Assembly: GCA_029582155.1 (NCBI GenBank)
Contig: CM055901.1
Location: forward strand, 41,255,616 to 41,319,615
DNA: 64,000 nucleotides
Reading direction: 5' to 3'
Source: Panopea generosa
Lineage: Eukaryota; Mollusca; Bivalvia; Adapedonta; Hiatellidae
A program made the position numbers and the translations under genes. Numbering within the stretch: position 1 is the stretch's first letter; every line of letters starts with the position of its first letter. The notes under the pieces are model-generated. The model ran no database searches. It saw only the letters and a list, made by a program, of their open reading frames with translations, and had not been told where the DNA came from. This document shows positions 19,441-55,893 of the stretch, piece after piece.

Positions 19441-20344
19441 CTGAAAATATACATAAAATGCCATTGTCATATTTCAACCTAATAAACCAATAAACAAATT
19501 CAATTATACCTGAAAAGTTCAAAACATCAACTACCAATAGATATCTTTGCTTGGTCATCATCTCCTTTGCATGTTTCTTAATATCAACACCCATATCACA
19601 CTAAAAGTAAACCCCTAATTGGTTTATTAACTCCGTACAAAACTCAACCAACTCCTTGTCGACACAGAGAAATACTACTTCTACCTGCCACCACCTGAAA
19701 ATTAACCACAATCATTAGAGTGTCTCTATACCATAATCACCTTGCCTTTCCTTTTATTGAAACATAATCCTTAAATTCTTCCTACAAACCCATAACTGCA
19801 TAACTCTCTATTGAACTGTATAAGAAATATTAAACTCTAACATTGTTTAACTTTATACAACATGATTCAAACAAAGACAAACAATAATGGGTCACTGATT
19901 GCATACTTTTACAGATTTACACAGGTAATGGATTATTTGGCATGGTTCACATGCTTTTCTTTTTTTTAATACTGGTTTCATGGAGCTTGGCATTAAATTA
20001 AATACACATTCATGCAAAACATAGCTCAAAATCAGGTTACAAGGTGCAAAATGTGTAGTGCTTACAGCCACTTATGGATGTTGATAATAGGCACATTTAA
20101 CAGAGATAATACACTCAGCATATTGGACCCATATTATGTTGTAATGCCGATTGACCCATACTTGCCACTACTTAGAAGAAACCCTGTTTCCTATTTCACT
20201 AAAATTTCAATGCTCAAATTAAATTTTGCACTATTTTTGTTTACAGGAATATAGGCAAAATGTCTACATGACCACCTACTGAGCTGAATAATTATTCAAA
20301 TACATTTTATGAAACACAATTAGAAGAAATCTTAATCTGTTTTT
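19441..20344. other. Intron 2, proximal part, no feature recognised
   Basis: AT-rich intronic sequence between exon three and the 53-bp array. Open frames run through it from the exon but lie beyond the acceptor and are not coding. Confidence 0.55.
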
Positions 20345-23300
20345 GCAAAAATTAAGATCTTGCTGGACCTGGGGCTTTGTGACACTGCATGAAAGAAATG
20401 TTGGTGAGAAGTTTAATGGACCAGGGCTGGGGTACACTGCCCTGTTTACATTGCAGGAAAGAAATATTGGTGAGAAGTTTAACTGACCTGGGACCTGTTT
20501 ACATTGCAGGAAACACGTGTTGGTGAGAAGTATAACATACCTCGGACCTGGTAACATTGGAGGAAAGAAGTGTTGGTGAGAAATATAACGGACCTGGTAT
20601 CTGTATACATTGCAGGAAAGACGTGTTGGTGAGAAGTATAACGGACCTGGTTACAATGGAGGAAAGAAGAGTTGGTGAGAAGTATAACGGACCTGGTTAC
20701 AATGGAGGAAAGAAGTGTTGGTGAGAAGTTTAATGGACTTGGGGCCTGGTTACATTGGAGGAAAGAAGTGTTGATGAGAAGTATAACAGACCTGGGACCT
20801 GGTTACATTGCAGAAAAGAATGTTGGTGAGAAGTATAATGGGACCTGTTTACATTGCAGGAAAGAAAAATTAGCGAGAAGTTTAACTGACTTGGGACCTG
20901 TTTACATTTCAGGAAAGAAATGTTGGTGAGAAGTTCAACTAACTTGGGACCTGGTTACAATGGAGGAAAGAAGTGTTGGTGAGAAGTATAACGGACCTTG
21001 GACCTGGTTACATTGGAGGAAAGAAGTGTTGGTGAGAAGTATAACGGACCTGGGACCTGGTTACATTGGAGGACAGAAGTGTTGATGAGAAGTTTAAGTG
21101 ATCTGTGGCCTGTTTACATTGGAGGAAAGATATGATGGTGAAAAGCTTAACTGATCTGGGGCCTGTTTACATTGCAGGAAAGAAATATTGGTGAGAAGTT
21201 CAACTGACGTGGGACCTGCTTACATTGCAGGAAAGAAATATTGGTGAGAAGTTTAACTGATCTGGGGCCTGTTTACATTGCAGGAAAGAAGTATTGATGA
21301 GAAGTTTAACTGACCTGGGACCTGTTTACATTTCAGGAAAGATATATTGGTGAGAAGTTTAACTGACTTTGGACCTGTTTACATTGCAGGAAAGAAGTGT
21401 TGGTGAGAAGTATAACGGACCTTGGACCTTGTTACATTGGAAGAAAGAAGTGTTGGTGAGAAGTATAACGGACCTGGTTACATTGGAGGAAAGAAGTGTT
21501 GCTGAGAAGTTTAAGTGATGTGGGTCCTGTTTACATTAAAGAAAAGAAGTGTTGATGAGAAGTTTAATGGACCTGGGGCCTAGTTACATTGTAGGAAAGA
21601 AGTGTTGATGAGAAGATTAACGGACCTGGGACCTGGTTACATTAGAGGAAAGACGTGTTGGATGAGAAGTTTAACAGACCTGGGACCTGGTTACATTGGA
21701 GGAAAGAAGTGTTGGTCAGAAGTTAAATGGACCTGGAACCTGGTAACATTGGAGGAAAGAAGTGTTGATGAAAAGTTTAACAGACCTGGGACCTGTTTAC
21801 ATTGCAGGAAAGAAATGTTGGTGAGATGGTTAATGGACCTGGGGCCTGGTTACATTGTAGAAAAGAAGTGTTGGTGAGAAGTTTCATGGACCTGGAACCT
21901 GGTTACATTGGAGGAAAGAAGTGTTGGTGAAAAGTTTAACAGACCTGGGACCTGTTTACATTGCAGGAAAGAAGTGTTGGTGAGAAGTATAACGGACCTT
22001 GGACCTGGTTACATTAGAGGAAAGAAGTGTTGGTGAGAAGTTTAATAGACCTGGGACCTGGTTACATTGGAGGAAAGAAGTATTGGTGAGAAGTTTAATG
22101 GACCTGGAACCTGGTTACATTGGAGGAAAGAAGTGTTGGTGAGAAGTTTAATGGACCTAGAACCTGGTTACATTGGAGAAAAGAAGTGTTGGTGAGATGG
22201 TTAATGGACCTGGGGCCTGGTTACATTGCAGGAAAGAAGTATTGGTGAAAAATTTAACAGACCTGGAACCTGTTTACATTGCAGGAAAGAAGTGTTGGTG
22301 AGAAGTATAACGGACCTTGGACCTGGTTACATTTGAAGAAAGAAGTGTTGGTGAGAAGTATAACGGACCTGGTTACATTGGAGGAAAGAAGTGTTGATGA
22401 GAAGTTTAAGTGACCTGGGACCTGTTTACATTGGAGGAAAGATATGTTGGTGAGAAGTATAACGGACCTTGGACCTGGTTACAATGGAAGAAAGAAGTGT
22501 TGGTGAGAAGTATAACGGACCTGGTTACATTGGAGGAAAGAAGTGTTGATGAGAAGTTTAAGTGACCTGGGACCTGTTTACATTGGAGAAAAGATATGTT
22601 GGTGAGAAGTTTAACTGATGTGGGACCTGTTTACATTGCAGGAAAGAAGTGTTGGTGAGAAGTTTAATGGACCTGGGGCCTAGTTACATTGTAGGAAAGA
22701 AGTGTTGATGAGAAGATTAACTGACCTGGGACCTTGTCACATTGTAGTAAAGAAATGTTGATGAGAAGTTTAATGGGCCTGGGATCTGATTACATTGTAA
22801 GAAAGAAAATGTTGATGAGAAGTTTAATGAACCTGGGATCTGGTTACATTGCAGGAAAGAAGTGTTGGTGAGAAGTTTAACTGACCTGGAACCTGGTTAC
22901 ATTGGAGGAAAGAAGTGTTGGTGAGAAGTTTAACTGACCTGGAACCTGGTTACATTGGAGGAAAGAAGTGTTGGTGAGAAGTTTAATGGACCAGGGGGTC
23001 TGGTTTCACTACAGGAAAGAAATGTTGATGAGAAGTTAATGGACCTTGGATCTGGTTACATTGCAGGAAAAAAGTGTTGATGCGAAGTTTAATGGACCTG
23101 GGTCCTGGTTACATTGCAGGAAAGAAGTATTGGTGAAAGTTTAAATGACCTGGGACCTGGTTACAATGGAGGAAAGAAATGTTGATGAGAAGTTTAATGG
23201 ACCTGGGATCTGGTTCCATTGTTGGAAAGAAGTGTTGGTAAGAAGTTTAACATACCTGGGACCTGGTTACATTGGAGGAAATAAGTGTTGGTGAGAAGTT

Positions 23301-23960
23301 AAATGGACCAGGGGGCCTGGTAACACTACAGGAAAGAAATGTTGATGAGAAGTTAATGGACCTGGGATCTGGTTACATTGCAGGAAAAAAGTGTTGGTGC
23401 GAAGTTTAATGGACCTGGGACCTGGTTACATTGCAGGAAAGAAATGTTGGTTAGAAGTTTAACTGACCTGGGACCTGTTTACATTGCAGGAAAGAAATGT
23501 TGATGAGAAGTTTAACTGACCTCGGACCTGGTTACAGTGTAGGAAGAAATGTTGATTAGACATTTAACATACCTGGGACCTGGTTACATCGGAGGAAAGA
23601 AGTGTTGGTGAGAAGTATAACATACCCGGGACCTGGTTACATCGGAGGAAAGAAGTGTTGGTGAGAAGTATAACAGACCTGGGACCTGTTTACATTGCAG
23701 GAAAGACGTGTAGGTGAGAAGTATAATGGACCTGGGACCTGGTTACATTGGAGGAAAGAAATGTTGGTGAGAAGTTTAATGGACCTGGGGCCTGGTTACA
23801 TTGCAGTAAAGAAGTGAAGAAATTACAAAAGTAAATCTGAAGAAGTTTTAATGAACTTAAGAACATGGTTACTGCAGGTATTCAATAGCAAACTTTGGTG
23901 AGAGGTTTAATGCACCTGGGGCCTGGCAACACTGCAGGAAAGTGATAGAGAGAATGCAAA
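20345..23960. repeat. 53-bp minisatellite array (about 65 diverged units)
   Basis: The unit is about GGACCTGGGACCTGGTTACA then TTGGAGGAAAGAAGTGTTGG then TGAGAAGTTTAAC. Units differ by small indels and by alternation of TTGGAGG/TTGCAGG and TTTAAC/TATAAC. Divergence rises toward both ends. Every unit has CAG|G and G|GTGAGAAG-like strings on the plus strand, antisense to the gene. Confidence 0.95.
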
Positions 23961-24335
23961 AGTAAATCCTGGTGTGACCTGTTATGACAGATGACAAGTA
24001 CATTATGCCTCAAATCATTTATTTCTATATCTGATAAGTGGGATACACCCTTAATGCTTATCTGACTCATCCTCTAACTTGTTGTTACATGGCTTTTAAG
24101 TCTGGCCAAACAACCTCAGGGCTTTTATCTATAAATACTTGGTAATGTGTCAAATGAGTGATAGGTATAACCTGTATTAAACGTTCTGTATATATCTTTT
24201 ATTACACTCAATCCATTTACAGTAATGGCAATATGACGTCTGGTGTTCATGGTGCAACTGTAGTCTAAATCAACTGTATTGAATAGCTTCTTAAACCAGA
24301 TAGTCCAGATTGAACTATACAAAGCTGCATACTAT
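23961..24335. other. Intron 2 spacer, no feature recognised
   Basis: Unique AT-rich sequence between the 53-bp and 22-bp arrays. Confidence 0.55.
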
Positions 24336-26172
24336 GTAACTGTATATAACCATATAGGTAACTGTATATAACCATATATGTAACTGTACATAACTATAAA
24401 TGTAACTGTATATAACCATATATGTAACTGTACATAACTATAAATGTAACTGTATATAACCATATATGTAACTGTACATAACTATAAATGTAACTGTATA
24501 TAACCATATATGTAACTGTACATAACTATAAATGTAACTGTATATAACCATCTATGGAACTGTACATAACCATATATGTAACTGCAAAAAGAAGTATATA
24601 CCCATATATGTAACTGTACATAACCATATATGTAACTGTATATACCCATATATGTAATTGTATATACCCATAGATGTAACTGTATATACCCATAGATGTA
24701 ACTGTATATACCCTTATATGTAACTGTATATACCTATATATGTAACTGCAAAAAGCTGTATATACCCATATATGTAACTGTATATAGCCATAGATGTAAC
24801 TGTATATACCGATAGATGTAACTGTATATACCCTTATATGTAACTGTATATACCCATATATGTAACTGTATATACATCGATAGATGTAACTGTATATACC
24901 CTTATATATATCTGTATATACCCATATATGTAACTGTATGTATCAATAGATGTAACTGTATATACCCATATATGTAACTGCAAAAAGCTGTATATACCCA
25001 TATATGTAACTCTACATAAACATATATGTAACTGTATATACCCATAGATGTAACTGTATACACCCATAGATGTAACTTTATATACCCTTATATGTAACTG
25101 TATATACCCGTATATGTAACTGTATATAACCATTTATGTAACTGCATATAACCATATATGTAACTGTACATAACCATATATGTAACTGTATATAACCATC
25201 TATGTAACTGTATATACCCATATATGTAACTGCAAAAAGCTGTATATACCCATATATGTAACTGTATATAGCCATAGATGTAACTGTATATACCTATAGA
25301 TGTAACTGTTTATACCCTTATATGTAACTGTATATACCTATAGATGTAACTGTATATACCCATAGATGAAACTGTATATACCCATAGATGTAACTTTATA
25401 TACCCTTATATGTAACTGTATATACCCATAGATGTAACTGTATATACCCATAGATGTAACTGTATATACCCTTATATTTAACTGTATATACCCATATATG
25501 TAACTGTATATACCAATAGATGTAACTGTTTATACCCTTATATGTAACTGTATATACCTATAGATGTAACTGTATATACCCATAGATGTAACTGTATATA
25601 CCCATAGATGTAACTGTTGATACCCTTATTTTTAACTGCAAAAAGCTGTATATATCCATATATGTAATTGTATATATCCATATATGTAACTGCATATAAC
25701 CATATATGTAACTGTTCATAACCATAAATGTAACTGTACATAGATGTATATGTAACTGCACATAGGTAACTATGTAACTGTATATACCCATATATGTAAC
25801 TGTATATACCCATATATGTAACTGTATATAACCATATATGTAACTGTATGTACCCATATATATGTAACTGCACATAACCATATATGTAACTACATATACC
25901 CATTTATGCAACTGCATATAACCATATATGTAACTGTATATACTCATATATGTAACTGTACATAACCATATATGTAACTGTACATAACAATATATGTATC
26001 TGTACAGAACCATATATGTAACTGTACATAGATGTATATGTAACTGTACATAGGTAAATATGTAACTGTATGTAACCATATATGTAACTATACATAGATA
26101 AATATGTAACTGTATGTAACCATATATGTAACTGTACATAGATGTATATGTAACTGTTCATAGGTAAATAAT
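24336..26172. repeat. 22-bp minisatellite array (about 83 units), main block
   Basis: The unit is about ATGTAACTGTATATACCCAT plus AT. Variants change ACCCAT/AACCAT/ACCTAT/ACATAG, and some copies carry a 'GCAAAAAGC' insertion. Long minus-strand frames with a YSYIYGYIQLHIWVYTVTYMGI-type reading are a by-product: three units of 22 bp give a 22-residue cycle. Confidence 0.96.
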
Positions 26173-28294: not shown

Positions 28295-28560
28295 CAAGTC
28301 ATTGTATATAACAATATATGTAACTGTACATATCCATATTTGTAACTGTACATAACCATATATGTAACTGTACATAGATGTATATGTAACTGTACATAGG
28401 TAAATATGTAACTGTATGTAACCATAACTATACATAGATGAATATGTACTGTCAATATGTAACTGTATGTAACCATATACGTAACTGTACATAGATAAAT
28501 ATGTAACTATATGTAACTGTACATAGTTGTATATGTAACTGTACAAAGCTGCATATAGCA
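28295..28560. repeat. 22-bp minisatellite, displaced block
   Basis: Units such as TATGTAACTGTACATAACCA continue the array that ends at 26172, with the same ACATAGATG/ACATAGGTAA variants seen at the right end of the main block. About 12 units. The two blocks are one array split by inserted elements. Confidence 0.9.
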
Positions 28561-29155: not shown

Positions 29156-29710
29156 GATCTAGGCAGCTAACAAAACACCTGTTTGGGTAAGGTAAACCTG
29201 TTTCACCCCACCAGCTAACAAAACACCTGTTTGGGTAAGGTAAACCTGTTTCAACCCATCAGCTAACAAAACACCTGTTTGGGTAAGGTAAACCTGTTTC
29301 ACCCCACCAGCTAACAAAACACCTGTTTGGGTAAGGTAAACCTGTTTCACCCCACCAGCTAACAAAACGCCTGTTTGGTTAAGGTAAACCTGTTTCACCC
29401 CACCAGCTAACAAAACACCTGTTTGGGTAAGGTAAACCTGTTTCACCCCACCAGCTAACAAAACACCTGTTTGGGTAAGGTAAACCTGTTTCACCCCACC
29501 AGCTAACAAAACACCTGTTTGGGTAAGGTAAACCTGTTTCACCCCACCAGCTAACAAAACACCTGTTTGGGTAAGGTAAACCTGTTTCACCCCACCAGCT
29601 AACAAAACACCTGTTTGGGTAAGGTAAACCTGTTTCACCCCACCAGCTAACAAAACACCTGTTTTGGGTAAGGTAAACCTGCTCCACCCCACCACCCACC
29701 AGCTAACAAA
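29156..29710. repeat. 48-bp minisatellite, about 11 copies
   Basis: The unit is CAGCTAACAAAACACCTGTT then TGGGTAAGGTAAACCTGTTT then CACCCCAC. Copies are nearly identical. Since 48 is a multiple of three, the minus strand stays open (29159-29812) with a 16-residue repeat like TGVLLAGGVKQVYLTQ. I regard the frame as spurious: there is no splice context or non-repetitive domain. Confidence 0.96.
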
Positions 29711-33289: not shown

Positions 33290-34365
33290 TCTGATGTATG
33301 CCATAAAACAGCCCACTGTCAGTCCATCCCTAGTGCCACAATAAAGGCCAGAGTGTGCAAGCTGGAATCCTGATTTCTCTATATACTGTAATATCTCCAT
33401 AGTACTGCCCACTGTCAGTCCATCCTTAGTGCCACGATAAAGCTGGAATCCTGATTTCTCTATATACTGTAATATCTCCATAGTACTGCCCACTGTCAGT
33501 CAATCCCTAGTGCCACGATAAAGCTGGAATCCTGATTTCTCTATATACTGTAATATCTCCATAGTACTGCCCACTGTCAGTCCATCCCTAGTGCCACGAT
33601 AAAGCTGGAATCCTGATTTCTCTATATACTGTAATATCTCCATAGTACTGCCTACTGTCAGTCCATCCCTAGTGCCATGATAAAGCTGGAATCCTGATTT
33701 CTCTATATACTGTAATATCTCCATAGTACTGCCCACTGTCAGTCCATCCCTAGTGCCACAATAAAGGCCAGAGTGTGCAAGCTGGAATCCTGATTTCTCT
33801 ATATACTGCAATATCTCCATAGTACTGCCCACTGTCAGTCCATCCCTAGTGCCACAATAAAGGCCAGAGAATGCAAGCTGGAATCCTGATTTCTCTATAT
33901 ATTGTAATATCTCCATAGTGCTGCCCACTGTCAGTCCATCCCTAGTGCCATGATAAAGCTGGAATCCTGATTTCTCTATATACTGTAATATCTCCATAGT
34001 ACTGCCCACTGTCAGTCCATTCCTAGTGCCACAATAAAGGCCAGAGAATGCAAGCTGGAATCCTGATTTCTCTATATATTATAATATCTCCATAGTACTG
34101 CCCACTGTCAGTCCATACCTAGTGCCACAATAAAGGCCAGAGACTGCAAGCTGGAATCCTGATTTCTCTATATATTGTAATATCTCCATAGTACTGCCCA
34201 CTGTCAGTCCATCTCTAGTGCCACAATAAAGGCCAGAGTGTGCAAGCTGGAATCCTGATTTCTCTATATATTGTAATATCTCCATAGTACTGCCCACTGT
34301 CAGTCCATCCCTAGTGCCATGATAAAGCTGGAATCCTGATTTCTCTATATTGTAATATCTTGTTT
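33290..34365. repeat. Dimorphic 81/96-bp tandem array (about 12 units)
   Basis: The short unit is 81 bp, from GTACTGCCCACTGTCAGTCC to TATACTGTAATATCTCCATA. The long unit is 96 bp, with an extra 15-bp 'GGCCAGAGTGTGCAA'-type piece before GCTGG. Both lengths are multiples of three, so minus-strand frames stay open (33242-33493, 33500-34009, 34079-34297) and read GSTMEILQYIEKSGFQL...GTRDGLTV with or without AHSGLYC. Order of long and short units is irregular. Confidence 0.95.
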
Positions 34366-34695: not shown

Positions 34696-35270
34696 CACAG
34701 CTAACAACCACAGTTCACCATTCCATACAAACACTTGTACAACAGGGTAACCACAGTTCACCATTCCATACAAACACTCGTACAACAGGGTAACCACAGT
34801 TCACCATTCCATACAAACACTTGTACAACAGGGTAACCACAGTTCACCATTCCATACAAACACTTGTACAACAGGGTAAGCACAGTTCACCATTCCATAC
34901 AAACACTTGTACAGCAGGGTAAGCACAGTTCACCATTCCATACAAACACTTGTACAACAGGATAACCACAGTTAACCATTCCATACAAACACTTGTAAAA
35001 TAAGATAACCACAGTTCACCATTCCATACAAACAGTTCACCATTCCATACAAACACTTGTACAACAGGGTTACCACAGTTAACCATTTCATACAAACACT
35101 CGTACAACAGGGTAACCACAGTTAACCATTCCATACAAACACTTCTACAACAGGGTAACCACAGTTCACCATTCCATACAAACACTTGTACAACAGGGTA
35201 ACCACAGTTCACCATTCCATACAAACACTTGTACAACAGGGTTAACACAGTTCACCATTCCATACAAACA
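34696..35270. repeat. 43-bp minisatellite, about 13 copies
   Basis: The unit is AACCACAGTTCACCATTCCA then TACAAACACTTGTACAACAGGGT. Copies vary at AACC/AAGC and TTCACC/TTAACC. One truncated unit near 35025 shortens the period locally. Confidence 0.95.
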
Positions 35271-36164
35271 GTTCTCAGTTCTGTATTTGAGTTTTCAAAT
35301 CTTGTAGACACCCATTATTGGATAATATAAGTACACTTCGGTTTATTCAAGGAATTATTAAACTGGAGGTCCGCTTAAACATATTTTCATGTAAAATAAC
35401 ATGTTATACTCCTGAAAATTCACTTTTTCTCTTAATTTCGATGTGATACTATATGAGCATGATTTATTTTAATATTGGCACAACATTTAATCTGAGCATG
35501 ATTTATTTTTATATTGGCACAACATTTAATCAAATAATAGTTCACAACATTCGTCAATGTCATGTTAAAAATATTACAACAGTAGTATTCCAGATTTTGA
35601 CCAATGTGGCTTTTACAGAACTATTTATTTCACATTGTACAATTGTTTGGGTAATTAACAAATGCCAAAAAATGGATGAAAATTAAATACAAATGATACA
35701 AAATACAGGACATAATTGATAATCCAGTTATGATATTCATAATTTTCTTGAAAATTTGTATTTCTAGTGCAACGGTCAAGCAACCTGGTGTTATCCAAGT
35801 TTCACAGCACAGAAAGAGAACTAATATCAAAATGTTATCATTACCCATGATGAGCAATATAAATCCATGCCAATAACCTCAGACGGGTAATGTTTTGATC
35901 ATTGCACTCCTCCTCTTACCTTCCAACACAAGCATTAGAAACAACCAGAAAATACTCAATATGTAAAGTAATATTGTAAAGCTGTGCTTTAAGAATAAAT
36001 ATGTTAATAAACATATAATGCAATGCATGTGACATATGGTCCCTATTGATTGGCAGTTGTTTTCTATACAGTAGGCTTAAACCATTGTGGATTCACAGAC
36101 CATGAAACCACATACATGTGGTATATCTAGGATCATTGCATTGGACATATTACTTTACTTAATT
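35271..36164. other. Intron 2 spacer with a 38-bp duplication
   Basis: 'GAGCATGATTTATTTTAATA' plus 'TTGGCACAACATTTAATC' is present twice in tandem (near 35455 and 35493). Otherwise featureless. Confidence 0.6.
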
Positions 36165-39842: not shown

Positions 39843-42800
39843 TGTGAATATGACAAACCCTGATGTACAGTGTAAATATGATGAACCCTGATGTACAGTG
39901 TAAATATAACAAATCCTGATTTACAGTGTAAATATGACTAACCCTGATGTACAGTGAAAATATGACAAACCCTGATGTACAGTGTAAATATGACTAACCC
40001 TGATGTACAGTGTAAATATGACAAACCCTGATGTACACTGTAAATATGACAAACCCTGATGTACAGTGTAAATATGACAAACCCTGGTGTACAGTGTAAA
40101 TATGACAAACCCTGATGTACAGTGTAAATATGACTAACCCTGATGTGCAGTGTAAATATGACAAACCCTGATGTACACTGTAAATATGACAAACCCTGAT
40201 GTACAGTGTGAATATGACAAACCCTGGTGTACAGTGTAAATATGACAAACCCTGATGTACAGTGTAAATATGACTAACCCTGTCGTACAGTGTAAATATG
40301 ACAAACCCTGATGTACACTGTAAATATGACAAACCCCGATGTACAGTGTAAATATGACAAACCCAGGTGTACAGTGTAAATATGACTTACCCTGATGTAT
40401 ATGACAAACCCTGATGTACAATGTAAATTCGACAAACCCTAATGTACAGTGTAAATATGACAAACCTTATATACAGTGTAATTACGACAAACGCTGAGGT
40501 ACAGTGTAAATATGACAAACCAAAATATATATAGTAAATATGGCAAACCCTTATGTACAGTGTAAATATGACAAACCCTAATGTACAGTGTAAATATGAC
40601 AAACCCTGATATAAAGTGTAAATATGATAAACCCTGATGTACAGTGTAAATATAACAAATCCTGATGTACAGTGTAAATATGACTAACCCTGATGTACAG
40701 TGAAAATATGACAAACCCTGATGTACAGTGTAAATATGACTAACCCTGATGTACAGTGTAAATATGACTAACCCTGATGTACAGTGAAAATATGACAAAC
40801 CCTGATGTACAGTGTAAATATGACTAACCCTGATGTACAGTGTAAATATGACAAACCCTGATGTACACTGTAAATATGACAAACCCTGGTGTACAGTGTA
40901 AATATGACAAACCCTGGTGTACAGTGTAAATATGACAAACCCTGGTGTACAGTGTAAATATGACAAACCCTGATGTACACTGTAAATATGACAAACCCTG
41001 ATGTACAGTGTAAATATGACAAACCCTGATGTACAGTGTAAATATGACTAACCCTGATGTACAGTGTAAATATGACAAACCCTGATGTACACTGTAAATA
41101 TGACAAACCCTGACGTACAGTGTAAATATGACAAACCCTGGTGTACAGTGTAAATATGACTAACCCTGATGTATATGACAAACCCTGAGGTACAGTGTAA
41201 ATTTGACAAGCCTTATATACAGTGTAATTACGACAAACCCTGAGGTACAGTGTAAGTATGACAAACCAAGATATACATAGTAAATATGGCAAACCCTTAT
41301 GTACAGTGTAAATATGACAAACCCTAATGTACAGTGTAAATATGACAAACCCTGATATAAAGTGTAAATATGATGAACCCTGATGTACAGTGTAAATATG
41401 ACAAACCCTAATGTACAGTGTAAATATGACAAACCCTGAGGTACAGTGTAAATATGACTAAACCTGATGTACAGTGTAAATTTTACAAACCCTGATGTAC
41501 AGTGTAAATATGACAAACCCTGATGTACAGTGTAAATATGACAAACCCTGATGTACAGTGTAATATGACAAACCATGGTGTAGTGTAAATATGACAAACC
41601 CCGATGTACAGTGTAAATATGACTAACCCTGATGTACAGTGTAAATAAGACAAACCCTGATGAACAGTGTAAATACGACAAACCCTTGTATACTGTGTAA
41701 TATGACAAACACTGATGTACAGTATAAATATGGCAAACCCTGATGTACAGTGTAATATGACAAACCCTGATGTACAGTATAAAAATGGCAAACTCTGATG
41801 TACAGTGTAATATGACAAACCTGATGTACAGTATAAATATGGCAAACCCTGATGTACAGTGTAACATGACAAACCATCATGTACAGTGTAATATGACAAA
41901 CCCTGTTGTACAGTATAAATATGGCAAATCCTGATGTACAGTGTAATATGACAAACCTTGATGTACAGTGTAAATATGTCAAGCCCTGAGGTACAGTGTA
42001 AATATGACAAACCCTGAGGTACAGTGTAAATATGACAAACCAAGATATACAGTGTAAATATGACAAACCCTAATGTACAGTGTAAATATGTCAAGCCCTG
42101 ATGTACAGTGTAAATATGACATTCCCTGAGGCACAGTATAAATATGACAAACCCTGATGTATAGTGTAAATATGTCAAGCCCTGATGTACAGTGTAATAT
42201 GACAAACCCTGATATACAGTGTAAATATGACTAACCCTGATGTACAGTGTAAATATGACAAACCCTGATGTACAGTATAAATATGACAAACCCTGATGTA
42301 CAGTGTAATATGAGAAATATGTAAATATGACTAACCCTGATGAACAGTGTAAAGATGTACAGTGTAAATATTGCAAACCCTGATGCACAGTGTAAATATG
42401 ACAAACCCTGATGTACAGTGTAATATGACAAACCCTGATGTACAGTGTAAATATGACTAACCCTGATGTACAGTGTAAATATGACAAACCCTGAGTGTAA
42501 TATGACAAACCCTGATGCACAGTGTAAATATGACAAACCCTGATGTACAGTGTAATATGACAAACCCTGATGTACAGTGTAAATATTATTTACCCTGATA
42601 TACAGTGTAAATATGACAAACCCTGATGTACAGTGTAAATATGACTAACCCTGATATACAGTGTAAATATGACAAACCCTGATGTACAGTGTAATATGAC
42701 AAACCCTGATGTACAGCATAAATATTGCAAACCCTGATGTACAGTATAAATATGACAAACCCTGATTTATAGTATAAATATATTATATATCCTGATGTAC

Positions 42801-42890
42801 AGTGTAAATATGACAAACCCCGATATAGTGTAAATTTAACTAACCCTGATATATAGTGTAAATATGACTTACCTTGATGTACTGTGTAAA
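39843..42890. repeat. 28-bp minisatellite array (about 108 units)
   Basis: The unit is about AAACCCTGATGTACAGTGTA plus AATATGAC. In the right half many units lose one A (GTAATATGAC, 27 bp) and several change AAATATGACAAAC to AAATATGGCAAAC. Larger blocks are duplicated: 40380-40640 and 41165-41370 share the unusual 'CTTATATACAGTGTAATTACGACAAAC' and 'AAATATGGCAAACCC' variants in the same order. Minus-strand frames of up to 345 codons are a by-product. Confidence 0.96.
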
Positions 42891-44255
42891 TCCACACCAT
42901 TTTATATAACAGTTCTCTGACTGTATATTATTTGTATAGTTGTATAACTGTGCCTTATAACATGAACTCCTAATACCATATAACAATGTTGTGTTAATAA
43001 TCCAACTAATTAACACAACAAAAGTTAATTAAAAGAAAATGACAATAAATATAAAGTGTAACATCCATCTAGTATATTCCTCCATGTGTTGTGAAGGACT
43101 GCCACTAAAGATAATTACACTAGCAGTATATAATTACATTGTCAGTGCATCTCATTTATATAATTATGCCTTAGCATGACTCTCTCTCATCCTTGTTCTA
43201 TATATAGCACCTGTAATTCAGTAACGACTTTGGTCCTTTTGGGTGACAACTAAGTTGCCACGATCTGGTGAAACGATAATGTTTAAAATTGCTGTCCTAA
43301 AACTATTTGTGAAATCCAGAGTGGATAATTAAAACAATAAGACACTCATAATTTCAACTGATAACAATGTTTACATTTTACAAATGCACAAATCAATACC
43401 AAGCACGAAGTATTCAATACAAATACAATACAATTGTATTGACCCTAGTTATTTAATGTATGGTGATGGGGTTATTTCATGTGCACTATAAGCCATGTCT
43501 ACTGATAAAGCCCGTGACCTTATTTGGCAGTGAATTTGTACTTGCCATAAAACAATAATTCATTGTCTGAATGAAGAATAATTTACCTGAAGAGGACAAT
43601 ATCTAGGTTAACTCTAGCTTGTTTTCTATTTTAGATATTACCACTAAATACATGATTAGTGACAGAACACTCAGACATTTAATCACTATATAGTACATAC
43701 ATTATATAATCACTACATGTATACATCATTCACTTTAAACCTTTAAAAGGCCAATCTATTTCCAAGCCCTCATCATTAACATCAACATTACAACATAGTT
43801 ATGTTCTAAAATGTTAATTTGTCCGCAATACTTACTTAAAGTCATAAAGATAATTTGGAGAATAATTCCAACATCGTATTTTATCTTTAATTGATTCCAA
43901 CTTGAAATAAAGAAACCCCCCCCAAAAAAACAACAAATATAAATGACACCGTTGTCTCTATAACAACATGTTTAACTGTTTATCTACATAAAATTAAATT
44001 TGCAGTATCACAGACCTGGAACAGGAAATGACTAAAGACTAGATTATTATGATATTTAAAAACATATTTGATGCACACAAATCAATATGACAACATTCTA
44101 AAGTCAATAAAATATCAGACAGTTATTGCTGCAATTTAAACCAATTTTCTTCCACAATCTACAATAATATTTGATCAAATTCGCACTTGTGATTTTGACA
44201 AATGTTACATCACCGACCCTGGCACTAAGATTCTGATACTGCATTGACTCCCTTA
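42891..44255. other. Intron 2 sequence, no feature recognised
   Basis: AT-rich unique sequence between two arrays. A short C-tract lies at about 43917-43925. Confidence 0.5.
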
Positions 44256-45845
44256 GGATCGAGTAAGTGAGTGCCTATTCTGTTGTCAATGTAGCCCAGG
44301 TTAAATCCCTGCCCCAGGGATTTAGTGAGAACCTTCTCTTCTGTTGTCAATGTAACCCAGGTTAAATCCCTTCCCCAGGGATTTAGTGAGAACCTTCTCT
44401 TCTGTTGTCAATGTAGCCCAGGTTAAATCCCTGCCCCAGGGATTTAGTGAGAACCTTCTCTTCTGTTGTCAATGTAACCCAGGTTAAATCCCTTCCCCAG
44501 GGATTTAGTGAGAACCTTCTCTTCTGTTGTCAATGTAACCCAGGTTAGAATCCCTGCCCCAGGGATTTAGTGAGAACATTCTCTTCTGTTGTCAATGTAA
44601 CCCAAGTTAAAATCCCTTTCTAATGGTTTTAGTGAGAATCTTCTCTTCTGTTGTCAATGTAACCTAGGTTAGAATCCCTTTCCCATGAATTTAGTGAGAA
44701 CCTTCTCTTCTGTTGTCAATGTAACCCAGGTTAGAATCCCTGCCCCAGGGATTTAGTGAGAACATTATCTTCTGTTGTCAATGTAACCCAAAATAGAAAC
44801 CCTGCCCTAGAGATTTAGTGAGAACCTTCTCTTCTGTTGTCAATGTAACCCAAAATAGAAACCCTTCCCCAGAGATTTAGTGAGAACCTTCTCTTCTGTT
44901 GTCAATGTAACCCAGGTTAGAATCCCTGTCCCAGGGATTTAGTGAGAACCTTCTCTTCTGTTGTCAATATAGTCATGGTTAGAATCCCTGCCCCAGGGAT
45001 TTAGTGAGAACCTTCTCTTCTGTTGTCAATGAAGCCCAGGTTTGAATCCCTGTCCCAGGGATTAAGTGAGAACCTTCTCTTCTGTTGTCAATGTAACCCA
45101 GGTTAGAATCCCTGCCCAAGGGATTAAGTGAGAACCTTCTCTTCTGTTGTCAATGTAACCCAGGTTAAAATCCCTACCTCAGGGATTAAGTGAGAACCTT
45201 CTCTTCTGTTGCAAATGAAGCCCAGGTTAGAATCCCTGTCGCAGGGATTTAGTGAGACCTTCTCTTCTGTTGTCAATGTAACCCAGGTTAGAATCTCTGC
45301 CCCAGGGATTTAGTGAGAACCTTCTCTTCTGTTGTCAATGTAACCCAGGTTAAAATCCCTACCTCAGGGATTAAGTGAGAACCTTCTCTTCTGTTGTCAA
45401 TGTAACCCAGGTTAGAATCCCTGTCCCAGGGATTTAGTGAGAACCTTCTCTTCTCCAAAATAGAAACCTTGCCCTAGAGATTTAGTGAGAACCTTCTCTT
45501 CTGTTGTCAATGTAACCCAAAATAGAAACCCTGCCCCAGGGATTTAGTGAGAACCTTCTCTTCTGTTGTCAATGAAGCCCAGGTTAGAATCCCTGTCCCA
45601 GGGATTTAGTGAGAACCTTCTCTTCTGTTGTCAATGTAACCCAGGTTAGAATCCCTGCCCCATGGATTTAGTGAGAACCTTCTCTTCTGTTGTCAATGTA
45701 GTCATGGTTAGAATCCCTGCCCCATGGATTTAGTGAGAACCTTCTCTTCTGTTGTCAATGTAGTCATGGTTAGAATCCCTGCCCCAGGGATTTAGTGAGA
45801 ACATTCTCTTTTGTTATCAATGTAACCAAAGTTAGAATCATGGTT
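44256..45845. repeat. Minisatellite of about 61-62 bp with a hairpin in each unit (about 26 copies)
   Basis: The unit is about AACCCAGGTTAGAATCCCTG then CCCCAGGGATTTAGTGAGAA then CCTTCTCTTCTGTTGTCAATGT. Most units contain AATCCCTG-CCC-CAGGGATT, an 8-bp stem with a three-base loop. One unit near 45455 is shortened. Variation clusters in the left part of the unit; the part from TTAGTGAG to TTGTCAATG is well kept. Confidence 0.95.
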
Positions 45846-45952
45846 ACAATCATGGTGTTCATAAATATCAATTTCAACTAGAAATACAACAATATACTAA
45901 TATATTAGTCAGTCTCAAATCAGAATAGTCATATGGTATTCAGTTTTTTGTT

Positions 45953-47371: not shown

Positions 47372-48026
47372 TTAATCCCCGCCACAGCTCATAGAGCGGA
47401 GCAGGGGATATAGAAATGGGCTGCGTCCGTCCATCAATGTGTGCGTGCGTCCCCTGCTCTCAGCACCGTATCTCCTTCAGTTGTGATTGGAATTTTAAAT
47501 AACTTAGCACAAATGTTCACTAGGACAAGATGATGTGTCATGCGAATGACTTGGGTCTGTTCGTCAAAGGTCTAGGTCATAGCTCAAGGTCAAGTGTTTG
47601 AAAATCCAAAGTATACACTGTGTTTTGTCCTGTACGGACCGTATCTCCTTTAGTTGTTATTGCATTTTTAAATAACTTGACACAAATGGTCACTATGACA
47701 AGACGATGTGTCATGCGACTGACTTAGGTCTGTTCATCAAAGGTCAAGGTCACAGCTCCGTCCGTCTGCTGCTATCCGGACCTTATCTTCTTTAGATTGT
47801 TATTGGACTTTCAAATAACTCAGCACAAATGTTTACTAGGACAAGATGATATATCATGCGAATGACTTGGGTCTGTTCTTCAAAGTTCAAGGTCACAGCA
47901 TTGTCTGTCTGTCCACTGCTGTCCAGACCGTATCTTCTTTAGTTGTGATTGGAATTTTAAATAAATTGGCACAAATGCTAACCAGCCCAAGATGATGTGT
48001 CATGCGAATGAGTTGGGTCTGTTCGT
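47372..48026 (+). mobile_element. Dispersed element family B with four internal repeats
   Basis: It opens with TTTTAATCCCCGCCACAGCT and then CATAGAGCGGAGCAGGGGAT, an imperfect hairpin (CCCC..GCTC / GAGC..GGGG). The body has four copies of about 140-175 bp starting 'CCGTATCT(C/T)CTT(C/T)AG' near 47466, 47639, 47770 and 47928, each with 'GCACAAATG', 'ACAAGATGATGTGTCATGCG' and 'GGTCTGTTCRTCAAAG'. No protein is encoded. Worn family B-like sequence ('GGTCTGTATCTCAAAGTTCA') resumes at 48743, and 'GGGGGATATGATCACACTAG...CCTCTTGTT' near 49262 may be its far end. Confidence 0.6.
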
Positions 48027-48490
48027 CAGGGGTTGTCCCTGTACCATGGACACTCTGCTTATGGACTTGCACTGTATGTGAAAGGTCAGTCTACTACATA
48101 TCAATCTCATCATCCAGATACTTTGGAATTTATGGCCCATGTGCTCCATATTCCTACAAGAAATCCTATTCTTCTACATGTAGCAGTTACATATGAACCC
48201 CCCCCCCCACCTCACCAGTTCCTAGTAGAGCTTTCAGAAGTACTTTTAAATGTTCCATAACTGTTTGACATTGTGCTTGGGGGGTGACTTCAACATTGTC
48301 CCTGATGATCTTTCTGTTATAACATTCACAGACAAATTGGGCCTCATTTAGTGGATTGATCCTTATACAGTGACACATTTTAAGGAAGAGCGTTAGACCT
48401 GATCTTTACATCATCATCATTACATGGCTTCCAGTCTGTCTACCCTCTGCCATACACAGACCACTTCTTACATGCTTCACTCTAACGAAG
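48027..48490 (+). pseudogene. Broken APE-type endonuclease fragment of a non-LTR retrotransposon
   Basis: Three plus-strand frames carry pieces of one endonuclease. The first (48033-48260) reads GLALYVKGQST...LEFMAHVL...NPILLHVAVTYEPP and then stops. A second frame from 48277 reads LGGDFNIVPDD, with the GDFN motif of AP-endonuclease-like domains. A third reads LDLIFTSSSLHGFQS...PLPYTDHF, matching the late DH motif of the same fold. The pieces occur in the correct order but are separated by frameshifts and stops (for instance TAG at about 48351), so the gene is dead. No reverse transcriptase follows; a SINE lies immediately downstream. Confidence 0.7.
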
Positions 48491-49504: not shown

Positions 49505-51880
49505 TCTAATTGGGCATATATTGTGTCTGTTGAACCATATGCTGTGTCGAGTGAACCATGTGCTGTAAACAGTCGACTATGTATTGTGTAGAGCGGACCA
49601 CATATTGTGTAGAGCAGACCATGTATTACGTAGAGCGGACCATGTACTGTATCCAGTGGACCATATGCTTTTGTCCAGTGAACCATATGCTGTGTGTTTT
49701 TGGCGGACCATGTGTTGTGTCCAGTGGACCATGTTTTGTGTTAAGTGAACCATATACTGTGTCAAGTGGACCATGTAATGGATAGAGTGAACTATGTGCT
49801 GTGTTAAGGGAACCATGTGCTGTGTTAAGTGAATCATGTATTGTGTTAAGTAAACCATGTGCTGTGTTAAGGGAACCATGAACTGTGTAGAGTGGACCAT
49901 GTACTGTGTTAAGTGAACCATGTGCTATGTTAAGGGAACACTGTACTGTGTAGAGTGGACCATGTACTGTGTTAAGTAAACCATGTACTGTGTAGAGTGG
50001 ACAATGAACTGTGTTAAGTAAACCATGTACTGTGTAGAAGTGGACCATGTACTGTGTAGAGTGTACCATGAATTGGGTAGAGTGAACCATGTACTATGTA
50101 GAGTGGACCATGTACTGTGTAGAGTGTACCATGTAATGGGTAGAGTGAACCATGTACTATGTAGAGTGGACCATGTACTGTGTAGAGTGAACCATATGCT
50201 GTATTAAGGGAACCATGTACTATGTAGAGAGGACCATGTACAGTGTTAAATGGACCATGTACTGTGTAGAGTGGACCATATATAGTGTAGAGTGGACCAT
50301 GTACTGTGTAGAGTGGGCCATGTATTGTGTAGAATGGACCATGTACTGTGTTCATTGTCCAGTGAACCATATGCTGTTTTCAGTGGACCATGTGTTGTGT
50401 AGAGTGGACTATGTGTTGTGTAGTGGACTATGTATTGTGTAGAGTGGACTATGTGTTGTGTAGAGTGGACTATGTATTGTATAGAGTGGACCATGTATTG
50501 TGTACAGTGGACCATGCTCTGTGTACCATGTACACTGTCTCCAATGGACCATGTATTATGTAGAGTAGACTATGTATTGTGTAGAGTGGACCATGTATTG
50601 TGTAGAGTGGACCATGTATTGTGTAGAGTGGACCATGTAGTATGTAGAGTGGACCATGCTCTGTGTACCATGTACACTGTCTCCAATAGACCATGTATTG
50701 TGTAGAGTGAACCATGTATTGTGTAAAGTGGACTATGTATTGTGTAGAGTGGACCATGTATTATGTAGAGTGAACCATGTATTGTGTAAAGTGGACTATG
50801 TGTTGTGTAGAGTGGACTATGTATTGTGTACAGTGGACTATGTATTGTATACAGTGGACCATGTATTGTGTACAGTGGACCATGCTCTGTGTACCATATA
50901 CACTGTCTCCAATGGACCATGTATTATGTAGAGTGGACTATGTATTGTGTAGAGTGGACCATGTATGGTGTAGAGTGGACCATGTAATATGTAGAGTGGA
51001 CCATGCTCTGTGTACCATATACACTGTCTCCAATGGACCATATATTGTGTAGAGTGGACCATGTATTGTGTAAAGTGGACTATGTATTGTGTAGAGTGGA
51101 CCATGTATTATGTAGAGTGAACCATGTATTGTGTAAAGTGGACTATGTGTTGTGTAGAGTGGACTATGTATTGTGTACAGTGGACTATGTATTGTGTACA
51201 GTGGACCATGTATTGTGTACAGTGGACCATGCTCTGTGTACCATGTACACTGTCTCCAATGGACCATGTATTATGTAGAGTGGACTATGTATTGTTTAGA
51301 GTGAACCATGTATTGTGTAGAGTGGACCATGTAATATGTAGAGTGGACCATGCTTTGTGTACCATATACACTGTCTCCAATGGACCATATATTGTGTAGA
51401 GTGGACCATGTATTGTGTAAAGTGGACTATGTATTGTGTAGAGTGGACCATGTATTATGTAGAGTGAACCATGTATTTTGTAGAGTGGACCATGAATTGT
51501 GTAGAGTGGACCATGTATTGTGTAGAGTGGACCATGTATTGTGTAGAGTGGACCATGTATTATGTAGAGTGCACTATGTATTGTGTAGAGTGGACTATGT
51601 ATTGTGTAGAGTGGACCATGTATTGTGTAGAGTTGACTATGTATTGTGTAGAGTGGACCATGTATTATGTAGAGTGGACCATGCTCTGTGTATAATGTAC
51701 ACTGTCTCCAATGGACCATGTACTTTGTCCGGCAGACCATATGCTGTGTGTTTTCAGTGAACCATGTGTTGTGTCCAGTGAACCATGTATTGTGTATAGT
51801 GAACCATGTATTGTGTAGAGGGGACCATGTATTGTGTAGAGTGAACTATGTATTGTGTAGAGTGGACCATGTATTGACAT
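49505..51880. repeat. 21-bp minisatellite array (about 112 units) with 347-bp higher-order repeats
   Basis: The unit is GTGTAGAGTGGACCATGTATT. Being seven codons long, it is open in several frames on both strands (YCVEWTM, VLCRVDH, TQYMVHS readings). The left part (49505-50480) is diverged. From about 50430 to 51720 a 347-bp block containing 'CATGCTCTGTGTACCATGTA' and 'CACTGTCTCCAATGGACC' repeats three to four times with high identity (equivalent points 50430, 50777, 51124). Confidence 0.96.
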
Positions 51881-52550
51881 ATACATGTACATATTTATAT
51901 AAATAGAGATACAGGTATATACATGTACATATTTATAAAAATAGAGATATATACATGTACATATTTATATAAATAGAGATACAGGTACATGTACATATTT
52001 ATATAAATAGAGATACAGGTATATACATGTACATATTTATGTAAATAGAGATATAAACATGTACATATTTATATAAATAGAGATACAGGTACATGTACAT
52101 ATTTATATAAATAGAGATACAGGTACATGTACATATTTATATAAATAGAGATACAGGTATATACATGTACATATTTATGTAAGTAGAGATATATACATGT
52201 ACATATTTATGTAAATAGAGATACAGGTACATGTACATATTTATATAAATAGAGATACAGGTATATACATGTACATATTTATGTAAATAGAGATATATAC
52301 ATGTACATATTTATATAAATAGAGATACAGGTGCATGTACATATTTATATTAATAGAGATACAGGTATATACATGTACATATTTATGTAAATAGAGATAT
52401 ATACATGTACATATTTATATAAATAGAGATACAGGTACATGTACATATTTATATAAATAGAGATACAGGTATATACATGTACATATTTATACAAATATTG
52501 ATATATACATGTTCATATTGATACAAATTGTGATATATATATATATATGT
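51881..52550. repeat. AT-rich 32/34/38-bp tandem array (about 18 units)
   Basis: Units start ACATGTACATATTTATATAA and continue ATAGAGATACAGGTATAT (38 bp), ATAGAGATACAGGT (34 bp) or ATAGAGATATAT (32 bp). The three lengths alternate in a partly regular way. The right end decays into (TA)n near 52535. It directly adjoins the 21-bp array. Confidence 0.93.
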
Positions 52551-53459
52551 ACAGATTTATATAATATCTATCACTTACCAGTATTTAACATTAAACCCTA
52601 ACTGATTTACAAAACAACATATTTAAACATGCATAAATAATATAGTCTAATTTCGCAATTATTCAAGTCATTAACCATAAAACAACTACAACCATATCCA
52701 CATGACTGTGTACATAAATACAAACATTGTACAATACCTTACTGAATGCTTAAATATATCTTTATCCAAAAATATTGATTAACAAGAAATATATATACAT
52801 TCTATTAACCATTCAAAACATCTCATGAAATTTAGATAAACCAAACATACAGGTTAACAAGTATCTCCCTGCAGTATAGCCATTATATCTGTTAACCTGT
52901 ATGAAATCAACCTGCCCACCCTACCATAACTAAAACCGACTTATAGTATTTCCAGCTCTCCATTGAAAACCATTATACTGTGTGATAATTATTCAGTTCA
53001 CAAGTAAATGCAAGGAAGTCTAGGATGTATGCAGGCCTTCAATCTCACAGTGCAAATCTTTTCAATGAATAAAATTCTTTCCACAATCTACATACCACCA
53101 AGTTTAAAATTCATAACAAATATATTCATACAATCTCCTCCTTGTGTTTCTTGACACAAAGTTGCCCGAGGCAATTTCATTTTATCATGTGTTTAAATAT
53201 TTTTAATTACTTAGTTATTAGGCAACAGCTCATTTATTTCCCCAGTTGCCCCTGGGCCGCCAGATGTGGAGAACAGCGGGGCGAAAGTGCAGGGCTCTTG
53301 CCACATCAATGCCCCCACCATGCTGTAGAAGTGCACGAGTTTTTCTTTGTGCAAAGAAAAGTCAGGATTATAGCGGTGCATCGGGAATTTAAACCCCATC
53401 CCAATAATGCCCCCCTCCCTACAAACATTTTCCCTTTTACAAAACAATTCTCAAGAACT
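52551..53459. other. Intron 2 sequence, no feature recognised
   Basis: AT-rich DNA except for a GC-richer patch at about 53230-53340 (CCCCAGTTGCCCCTGGGCCG...). A long plus-strand frame (53142-53852) runs from here into the next array but is antisense to the gene and mostly repeat. Confidence 0.5.
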
Positions 53460-53935
53460 ACTATCAACAACTTTCTCCCAACAGAAACCAACTCCCAGCA
53501 ACAACCTTCTCCCAACAAAAAAAAACTCCCAGCAACAACCTTCTCCCAACAAAAACCAACTCCCAGCAACAACCTTCTACCAACAAAAACCAGCAACAAC
53601 CTTCTACCAATAAAAACCAACTCCCAGCAACAACCTTCTACCAACAAAAACCAACTCCCAGCAACAACCTTCTACCAACAAAAACCAACTCCCAGCAACA
53701 ACCTTCTCCCAACAAAAAACAACTCCCAGCAACAACCTTCAACCAACAAAAACCAACTCCCAGCAACAACCTTCTACCAACAAAAAAAAACTCCCAGCAA
53801 CAACCTTCTACCAACAAAAACCCAACTCCCAGCAACAACCTTCTACCAATAAAAACCAACTCCCAGCAACAACCTTCTACCAATAAAAACCAACTCCCAG
53901 CAACAACCTTCTCCCAATAAAACAACCATTTCAAT
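53460..53935. repeat. 34-bp minisatellite, about 14 copies
   Basis: The unit is TTCTACCAACAAAAACCAAC then TCCCAGCAACAACC. One short unit lies near 53590, and homopolymer A-runs vary in length. Strong strand asymmetry: almost no G on the plus strand. Confidence 0.95.
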
Positions 53936-54712: not shown

Positions 54713-55095
54713 GGAGCAGGGGTAACAATTAACTGGGGCATTACTGTTTATGGGCAGTATCCCTTCATGTCAGTGCCTTTACCTCAGCTCTGTAGAGAGG
54801 AATGTTTAAATCCTCACCATGTCCCAGGTGGAGCAGGGGTAACAATTAACTGGGGCATTACTGTTTATGGGCAGTATCCCTTCATGTCAGTGCCTTTACC
54901 TCAGCTCTGTAGAGAGGAATGTTTAAATCCTCACCATGTCCCAGGTGGAGCAGGGGTAACAATTAACTGGGGCATTACTGTTTATGGGCAGTATCCCTTC
55001 ATGTCAGTGCCTACCTCGGCTCTGTAGAGAGGAATGTTTAAATCCTCACCATGTCCCAGGTGGAGCATGGGTACCAATTAACTGGGGCATTAAAG
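54713..55095. repeat. 117-bp tandem repeat, 3.3 copies
   Basis: The unit begins GAGCAGGGGTAACAATTAAC and ends CCTCACCATGTCCCAGGTG. Copies are nearly identical; the third lacks a few bases (CCTACCTCGG). The multiple-of-three length produces an open plus-strand frame (54767-55027) with a 39-residue cycle that I do not consider a gene. Confidence 0.93.
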
Positions 55096-55893
55096 TATCA
55101 AGTTCTTCTTACTGCACAAAATCCCACTCTGGGGCATCGTTGTCATACAATTTGGTGTATGATACAAGGTGATTGTGAGGCGTGCATATGTACATGATTA
55201 AAATTAAAAACAATAAAAATGATAACCCTCTCACAACAAATGGTTGGAAACTGACTACCCATGAATCTAGCAAGTACAGAGTTGCAGTAAGAGCCAGAGA
55301 TTATATGAAACATAGTGATGAATATTAACTATTTCAAGAAAATGGCATATCAATAAAGAGACATTCTCCTAAACTGCTATTTTATTTTAGTCATTCTAAA
55401 ATATATGTACAGATGAAGTACAACACACAAAATATAACACTTAATTGACCATTATTTACGCAGTTTATTTAGCGAAATTTAGATCATTTCACTATTTACA
55501 ATTACTGTAAAAATCAACTGGTTAAATACAGAGCTGCCCAGTGATGTTGTGTAGACAATTAGACCTTACCTGAAGTTCCCAGACAAGTCAAAACTATACA
55601 TATTACAAAACTGTAACACAAACTGACTAAAGTAAAAAAATGATTTAACGGTGCTTATGTAAGATTACACTGGTGTAATTACACTTCAAGAGATATATAC
55701 ACAAGATTACACTTCCTGTGGCCGTGTAATGTAATTATCACCTTCCTCAATCCAGTAAGTTACCTTTATCTGCCTCATTATGCAGGAACAATGTGTAACA
55801 TATACTGTATGTACCCAGGGAAGCAACTCTTGTACACTTATTGAAACATTCAATAAGGAGTTACCATTAGTATGTATAATTAATGGCACCTAC
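55096..55893. other. Intron 2, distal part, no feature recognised
   Basis: AT-rich intronic sequence next to the second exon's donor. Confidence 0.55.

Follow-up and report, generated by a model that had tools for sequence, protein, structure and literature searches.

What makes one intron of a geoduck gene carry a dozen minisatellites of different sequence: a property of the locus, a seeding process common to all of them, or neither? The window, that is the whole 64,000-nucleotide stretch of Panopea generosa DNA analysed here and the source of all coordinates, was initially annotated as holding a 36-kb intron between two phase-matched exons, and the predicted splice sites lie exactly there. 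On the minus strand the donor reads GATCAAG/GTAGGT at 55894/55893 (GT at 55893) and the acceptor TTTTCAG/ATTCTC at 19441/19440 (AG at 19441). The reading frames are intact on both sides and the intron is phase 1 at both ends. Nothing in the analysis suggests a function of this intron beyond its length.

Predicted gene structure, in order of transcription.
55894..56451, minus strand: predicted coding exon preceding the long intron, from phase 1 to phase 1, on the evidence of its open frame and splice sites
19441..55893, minus strand: predicted 36,453-bp intron (splice sites), 51% minisatellite (TRF period at least 10, score at least 100)
18746..19440, minus strand: predicted coding exon that follows the long intron, its putative 3′ end set by a GTAC donor at 18745
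12438..13580, minus strand: predicted next coding exon (open frame; CAG acceptor ending at 13581), with a weak Pfam AKAP2_C match under the curated cut-off

Tandem Repeats Finder (TRF) was run on the window. Tandem repeats make up 28,981–29,200 bp of its 64,000 bp, varying with the cut-off, in agreement with the initial estimate of about 29 kb, and 18,547–18,745 of the 36,453 bp of the intron. All the units first listed (53, 22, 48, 81/96, 43, 36, 28, 62, 21, about 32, 34 and 117 bp) were recovered, and a 143-bp array was missing from that list. Eleven of the twelve named units fall within 21–96 bp and one is 117 bp; the 143-bp array is likewise beyond the minisatellite range of about 10–100 bp. 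The statement that the arrays share no sequence holds for most of them and fails for the 22-bp and 32-bp arrays, which are AT-rich and match weakly (63–69%) on opposite strands. A single array contains both the 81-bp and the 96-bp units. Repeats 24328–26157 and 28303–28556 are one 22-bp family (best pairing 86–88%), split by a repeat that itself contains a second repeat.

Tandem arrays found by TRF, given without strand; the first and the last two lie outside the long intron.
1..4233: 45-bp array, continuing into the adjacent piece L032 past the left edge of the window
20441..23816: 53-bp array, 64.5 copies
24328..26157: 22-bp array (44/66-bp higher-order), first part
28303..28556: 22-bp array, second part, separated from the first by nested repeats (26166–28287)
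29164..29694: 48-bp array, 11 copies, neighbouring copies 95% identical (identity measurement)
33359..34360: 81/96-bp array
34706..35274: 43-bp array
36145..38259: 36-bp array, 58.8 copies, 0% indels
39840..42891: 28-bp array, 110 copies
44278..45839: 62-bp array
47440..48028 (start also placed at 47630): 143-bp array, dispersed family (also genome-wide search)
49515..51876: 21/42-bp array
51879..52564: 32-bp array, 104-bp higher-order unit
53465..53923: 34-bp array
54713..55092: 117-bp array, 3.3 copies, 98% matches
57174..60763: 15-bp array, 231 copies, neighbouring intron
62170..63257: 34-bp array, neighbouring intron

Arrays of period at least 15 number 28 in the window and 65 in a 189.5-kb genome sample, against 0 in a 200-kb first-order Markov null; their abundance is therefore not due to chance. 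In a look at strand asymmetry and composition, the arrays had a purine bias at the expected level, a keto bias (z 2.2) and a slightly higher GC content (z 3.1).

The genome baseline came from 20 pieces of 10 kb at hand-chosen round coordinates on 15 scaffolds, at about 5%–60% of scaffold length and none on C8, the scaffold of the window. Two pieces contain 5,000 N and one 500 N; genic and non-genic pieces are mixed, with intronic status unsorted. Over 189.5 kb without N they are 22.3% tandem repeat (bootstrap 95% interval of the per-piece mean 12–34%), and the genome paper gives 23.58% for the whole genome; in the accessible text, the annotation gives this total for tandem repeats without a breakdown. 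As tandem repeats occupy about a quarter of this genome, the intron is better seen as a dense spot in a genome-wide pattern than as a special structure. The median sampled piece is about 10% tandem repeat, compared with 51% in the intron. Relative to the sample, the window has about 2-fold coverage (p = 0.024) and 2.7-fold as many arrays of at least 300 bp (p = 0.0026), both p-values being too small because the window was chosen for its repeats.

The excess extends beyond this intron. Tandem repeats occupy 67% of the neighbouring intron of the same gene (and none of another); in six pieces taken beyond the window edges, at distances up to about 1 Mb, they make up 84, 61, 69, 53, 100 and 30%. 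Thus 6/6 nearby pieces reach at least 30%, compared with 5/20 sampled pieces (Fisher p = 0.002). The region on scaffold C8 is denser over about a megabase, and the repeat excess is not peculiar to the 36-kb intron. The proposal that the locus is tolerant of repeat birth is thus partly supported, at the scale of the region or the genome and not as a trait of this intron.

Enrichment on this scale could mark a special domain, for example pericentromeric or late-replicating heterochromatin. The arrays of the nearby pieces have mostly units of their own. Sampled coverage shows a gap (15/20 pieces below 20%, 5/20 at 48% or more), and the genome paper reports, in its available text, that repeat content is uneven and peaks at gene-poor places. 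These features speak for such a domain. Against it, a pre-set comparison of mid-chromosome with arm positions was negative (2/10 vs 2/10 1-kb pieces above 30%; means 20% vs 13%, p = 0.21), and among the 20 pieces repeat content showed no correlation with distance from the middle (rho −0.27, p = 0.25); mid-chromosome location as the cause was rejected on these results. A special domain is possible, if somewhat short of an even bet, and is compatible with the local origin of arrays argued for below.

To address a common seed, k-mers of 4–7 bases in 55 array units were compared with those in length-matched non-repeat segments. The 55 units are what remains once split arrays are merged and the neighbouring 21-bp and 32-bp arrays are treated as one; the coverage tally lists 57 arrays because those cut by 10-kb bins enter twice. 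No shared seed motif was found in this comparison. The most widespread k-mer stayed under the mean maximum of the null for every k (for 6-mers, 11 vs 14.1 units). Uncorrected for the number of k-mers, some individual ones are commoner than expected for them (ACTGTAC in 5 units vs 0.5, TCACCA in 8 vs 1.7, TGTACA in 7 vs 1.6), an excess partly inflated because related arrays sit in one place.

The arrays also differ in age: identity of neighbouring copies varies widely from array to array. Four measured arrays have 0% indels, and in the others identity as a function of copy distance is confounded by indels. Between 1 and 7–8 units apart, identity dropped from 0.868 to 0.729 in the 45-bp array, from 0.835 to 0.640 in the 36-bp array and from 0.948 to 0.903 in the 48-bp array; in the 67-bp array, the most uniform, it was flat with copy distance (0.972 to 0.967). 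Copy numbers form a continuum. Among the 65 sample arrays, 28 have fewer than 2.5 copies and 16 have 2.5–4, followed by 5, 6, 3, 3 and 4 arrays in successive doubling classes up to 64 copies or more.

Three intron arrays (53-, 43- and 143-bp) were searched genome-wide; the others were compared with the fetched pieces alone. A 401-bp piece of the 53-bp array matched one place in the genome, its own array. The 43-bp array matched itself and one weak place (66–71%), a 24-bp array on C2 with a resembling core. The 143-bp array gave 1,454 candidate places, and among the 40 that were scored, those elsewhere were 87–90% identical at their best match; dispersed arrays are thus visible to the same tool. 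One unit at many places, as in a satellite, was seen for the 143-bp array and for neither of the other two.

Among the 72 arrays in fetched pieces, short units common to several places gave weak or short matches only. A 43-bp array in L044 has a 49-bp match in L020 (86%), the 21/42-bp array of the window matches an 18-bp array in L038 at 65–73%, two 18-bp arrays match each other at 73%, and short hits for two window arrays cover 62 bp at 76% and 38 bp at 87%. With no excess of a widespread k-mer, differing identities and two short-unit arrays private apart from one weak match, the idea of a seeding process shared by all the arrays was not supported.

A more specific form of common origin is that the arrays arose in non-autonomous Helentron (HINE) elements, either as their central repeats or by seeding within them. 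This process is known from oysters, where central repeats of HINEs account for the 13 largest clusters according to the available text of PMC7492417. A HINE central repeat is typically bordered by subTIRs, a microsatellite and a 3′ palindrome. The dispersal of the 143-bp array, a family probably carried by mobile elements, fits this; so does the finding that 4/7 arrays with units of at least 140 bp have homologues in other fetched places (72 arrays compared). In addition, a 1.7-kb element carrying an (ACAGACG)n tract and, close to its end, a GGCC palindrome is present inside the intron (26264–27963), and both flanks of the 15-bp array (57174–60763) match it in pieces at 71–88%. By these flanks, the 15-bp array sits within a degenerate copy of a dispersed element. 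A SINE-like dispersed repeat starts 109 bp past the 62-bp array (44278..45839).

The same searches tell against Helentrons as the general source. Dispersal of the HINE kind was not seen for the 53-bp array, which is private, or for the 43-bp array, private apart from its one weak match. In a comparison with the 20 sampled pieces, which detects only families of many thousand copies, a dispersed repeat lies no more than 200 bp from one or both ends of 5/24 window arrays, and 19/24 have none so close on either side. The element at the 22-bp array looks like a later insertion, and oyster monomers are mostly 140–180 bp (PMC7492417, available text), compared with units of 15–117 bp here. A Helentron origin of the arrays is therefore improbable. 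The mobile-element leads are real, yet they touch a minority of arrays; the setting of the 15-bp array and the 5/24 arrays near dispersed repeats suggest that mobile elements may help to seed some. At gathering scores, Rfam gave 0 matches in the window.

Array copy numbers are often wrong in noisy long-read assemblies such as this one, built from PacBio Sequel reads with Falcon, and those given here may be off. That the arrays, or their lengths, are assembly artefacts is nonetheless very improbable, as copies differ from one another within most arrays, the longest array in or at the edge of the window spans about 5.4 kb, well under the read N50 of 26.5 kb (genome paper, available text), and the frames flanking the intron are intact.

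The explanation we favour, at a probability of roughly three in four, is that these are ordinary minisatellites, each of local-duplication origin, within a repeat-rich domain of a minisatellite-rich genome. The length of the intron would then be due mainly to a dozen of them arising separately inside it. Each array would start as a small tandem duplication of local sequence, which could be anything, mobile-element DNA included, and would grow by further local duplication through slippage during replication, template switching at the fork or short-range unequal exchange. Such duplications would be made or kept at a high rate in this genome. The 143-bp array stands apart as a dispersed family of another class. 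The arrays would be neutral, and those outside the genome-wide search would be private as well.

A wider reading is offered tentatively, as one that may well fail. In geoducks, and perhaps other Adapedonta, duplication may be very fast or slowly pruned, giving of the order of a hundred thousand unrelated, locus-private minisatellites that make up about a fifth of the genome and are concentrated in megabase domains that have turned into arrays at nearly every kilobase, this intron being one such domain seen inside a gene. In listings of the literature, no title or abstract on the nature of Panopea tandem repeats was found. Should a fifth of the genome consist of private minisatellites and not of a few satellite families, lineages differ in how fast tandem duplication itself runs, and Adapedonta clams would be well suited to finding what controls that rate.

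Among known systems, the razor clam Sinonovacula constricta, of the same order, has tandem repeats as its largest repeat class (15.4% of the genome; PMC7358530, available text); the accessible text of the Arctica and Indoaustriella comparative papers gave no usable tandem-repeat percentage. The Cg_HINE repeats carried by Helentrons in Crassostrea gigas (PMC7492417, in the text available) are also short dispersed arrays in a bivalve, and the 143-bp array resembles them in its dispersal; most units of the geoduck intron are shorter, and of the two tested, one is private and the other has a single weak match elsewhere. The closest likeness, by the sequence of one assembly, is to human-type minisatellites or VNTRs, with units of about 10–100 bp arranged head to tail, diverged copies, a place in introns and, for the 53-bp and (one weak match apart) the 43-bp array, privacy to the locus. 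The geoduck differs from them in its tandem-repeat share of about a quarter of the genome and in the close spacing of many arrays.

Run on the window, Tandem Repeats Finder (TRF) recovered arrays with the annotated unit lengths, bearing out the initial annotation's description of a 36-kb minus-strand intron (19441..55893; 36,453 bp) filled in large part by a dozen unrelated tandem arrays. Tandem repeats occupied ~29.2 kb of the 64-kb window and 18.5–18.7 kb of the 36.45-kb intron. The exons are predictions from reading frames and splice sites; the intron boundaries were ...GATCAAG/GT at 55893 and TTTTCAG/ATTCTC at 19441, with phase 1 on both sides. One predicted exon matched the A-kinase anchor protein 2 C-terminal domain at 25.6 bits, below the cut-off of 27. 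The long intron is ~17x the mean intron of Panopea generosa if the latter is taken as 2,171 bp, from a source passage that has four numbers for five items (PMC10729735).

The window lies at C8:41255616-41319615 in a 1,474,161,289-bp assembly of 39 pieces (C1, 101,196,518 bp). Tandem repeats are given as 347.6 Mb, or 23.58% of this genome (PMC10729735, Table 3), about equal to the 21.6% given there for DNA transposons. A baseline was obtained from 20 10-kb pieces picked at round coordinates on 15 scaffolds other than C8. Minisatellites, defined by a period of at least 10 and a score of at least 100, made up 42.2 kb of their 189.5 kb without N (22.3%), and the median piece contained ~10%. In the six complete 10-kb bins of the window the share was 49, 9, 60, 39, 53 and 64%, and arrays of 300 bp or more numbered 2.83 per 10 kb in the window compared to 1.06 in the sample. 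The window is thus 2- to 3-fold above average, a figure to be taken with care as the window had been picked for its repeats. Its mean coverage was exceeded in 5 of the 20 sampled pieces (48–89%). Extrapolation from 1.06 per 10 kb gives, with a wide margin, ~150,000 arrays of 300 bp or more in the genome. The observation of the initial annotation is correct, and what it describes is ordinary, the genome being what is unusual; the intron requires no mechanism of its own.

Tolerance of the locus to repeat birth had been proposed to explain the intron. The region is indeed richer than the sample, but the richness is not confined to the intron. The neighbouring intron (56452-63418) was 67% minisatellite, the stretch 1-12437 of the window 46%, and the 10 kb flanking the window on each side 84% and 61%, the left value including the continuation of a 45-bp array. 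Pieces of 5 kb from elsewhere on C8 gave the values below.

Minisatellite content of 5-kb pieces on C8
40.5 Mb: 53%, main unit 47 bp
41.1 Mb: 69%, main unit 59 bp; also one long-unit array (168 bp)
41.5 Mb: 100%, main unit 49 bp
42.2 Mb: 30%, main unit 18 bp

All six pieces near the window reached 30% or more, compared to 5/20 in the sample; a repeat-rich domain at megabase scale around the window is the simplest reading. Array density shifts sharply inside one gene, since 13620-18690, within the next intron (13581-18745) and beside the dense long intron, contained zero minisatellites of score 100 or more. This next intron does carry dispersed repeats. A preset test of whether rich domains sit mid-chromosome was negative: 1-kb pieces above 30% were equally frequent mid-chromosome and in the arms (2/10 vs 2/10), and those with zero minisatellite numbered 6/10 vs 8/10.

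The 45-bp array runs from 1 to 4233 of the window and continues into the adjoining piece (L032, 8815-9998). It seems to contain a large internal duplication, with similar frames beginning at 236 and 2572. As its unit is a multiple of 3, its frame stays free of stops over as many as 561 codons, with no indication of coding.

Whole-genome searches, which pass over very common words and score the best candidates only, were used to locate related arrays. A 401-bp query from the 53-bp array matched only within its own array, and the 43-bp array found its own locus and one 24-bp array on C2 (66–71%), alike in core and different in period. The 143-bp array (47440-48028) had 1,454 candidate places; among the 40 scored, those elsewhere were 87–90% identical at best match, so the search is able to detect dispersed arrays. 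A further comparison took in 72 arrays at least 100 bp long, drawn from 46 fetched pieces and the window itself (47 sources). Seven had units of at least 140 bp, and four of the seven had homologues at other places. Matches among the other 65 were between the L044 43-bp array and L020 (49 bp at 86%), the 21/42-bp array of the window and the L038 18-bp array (65–73%), and two 18-bp arrays (73%). Window arrays gave two short matches in the 20 sampled pieces, one of 62 bp (76%) and one of 38 bp (87%). That the unit is private to its locus is well supported for the 53-bp and 43-bp arrays, and likely, though not proven, for the remaining short-unit arrays. In another piece, L008, arrays of a 93-bp family at 6955-7480 and 9307-9994, in opposite orientation, 1.8 kb apart and 80% alike, are a local copy or inversion of one array.

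Mobile elements adjoin some of the arrays. The 22-bp array is in two parts (24328-26157 and 28303-28556; up to 86–88% alike), separated by a dispersed repeat (26166-26268 and 27958-28287) that runs uninterrupted in L016 (7302-7715, 8987-9399) and in L021. Within it is inserted a 1.7-kb repeat (26264-27963), whose internal period is ~630 bp; it carries an (ACAGACG)n tract and, near the end, a TGGCC...GGCCA palindrome, and we take it to resemble a non-autonomous Helitron/Helentron-type element. Should both parts derive from a single original array, the 22-bp array predates both insertions. A second copy of the 1.7-kb element, about 90% alike, is present at 15067-16737. Pieces of this element (71–88%) also flank, at 56702-57148 and 60951-61300, the 15-bp array outside the long intron (57174-60763), so this array sits in an old copy of the element, either born there or inserted later. 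Dispersed repeats represented in the sampled pieces lay no more than 200 bp from one or both ends of 5/24 window arrays, and near neither end of the other 19; the flanks thus point to mobile-element DNA as one substrate among several. A common SINE-like repeat has four copies in the window.

SINE-like repeat copies in the window
18029-18251, SINE-like repeat
48513-48725, SINE-like repeat
45948-46168, SINE-like repeat
31326-31449, minus strand, SINE-like repeat

The copy at 18029 matched in 7/20 sampled pieces, and any of the four in 9/20.

A seeding process common to all arrays, the other suggestion made from the sequence, is not supported: the most widely spread k-mer among 55 array units was not above chance, although individual k-mers stand out in uncorrected figures. 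Identity of neighbouring copies spans 0.97 to about 0.6, the low end arising partly from indels and mixed periods. Among four measured indel-free arrays, identity dropped with copy distance in three, a mark of growth by local steps, and was flat in the most uniform one. Arrays of fewer than 4 copies were the commonest class in the sample (44/65), with a tail beyond 64 copies; a Markov null gave zero arrays compared to these 65. Birth of a minisatellite would then be a small duplication, and growth would be limited to a few of those newly born.

The point of interest is the genome-level reason for so many seemingly private minisatellites in the geoduck lineage. Tandem repeats are given as 15.4% and the top repeat class in Sinonovacula constricta, of the same order (PMC7358530), and as about 0.9% in Tridacna crocea (PMC10858879); as pipelines differ, this contrast is a lead only. 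In Crassostrea gigas, Helentron elements are described as carrying dispersed satellite-like arrays (PMC7492417, PMC8268682). This model suits the geoduck 143-bp array in kind, whereas the two private short-unit arrays are unlike it.
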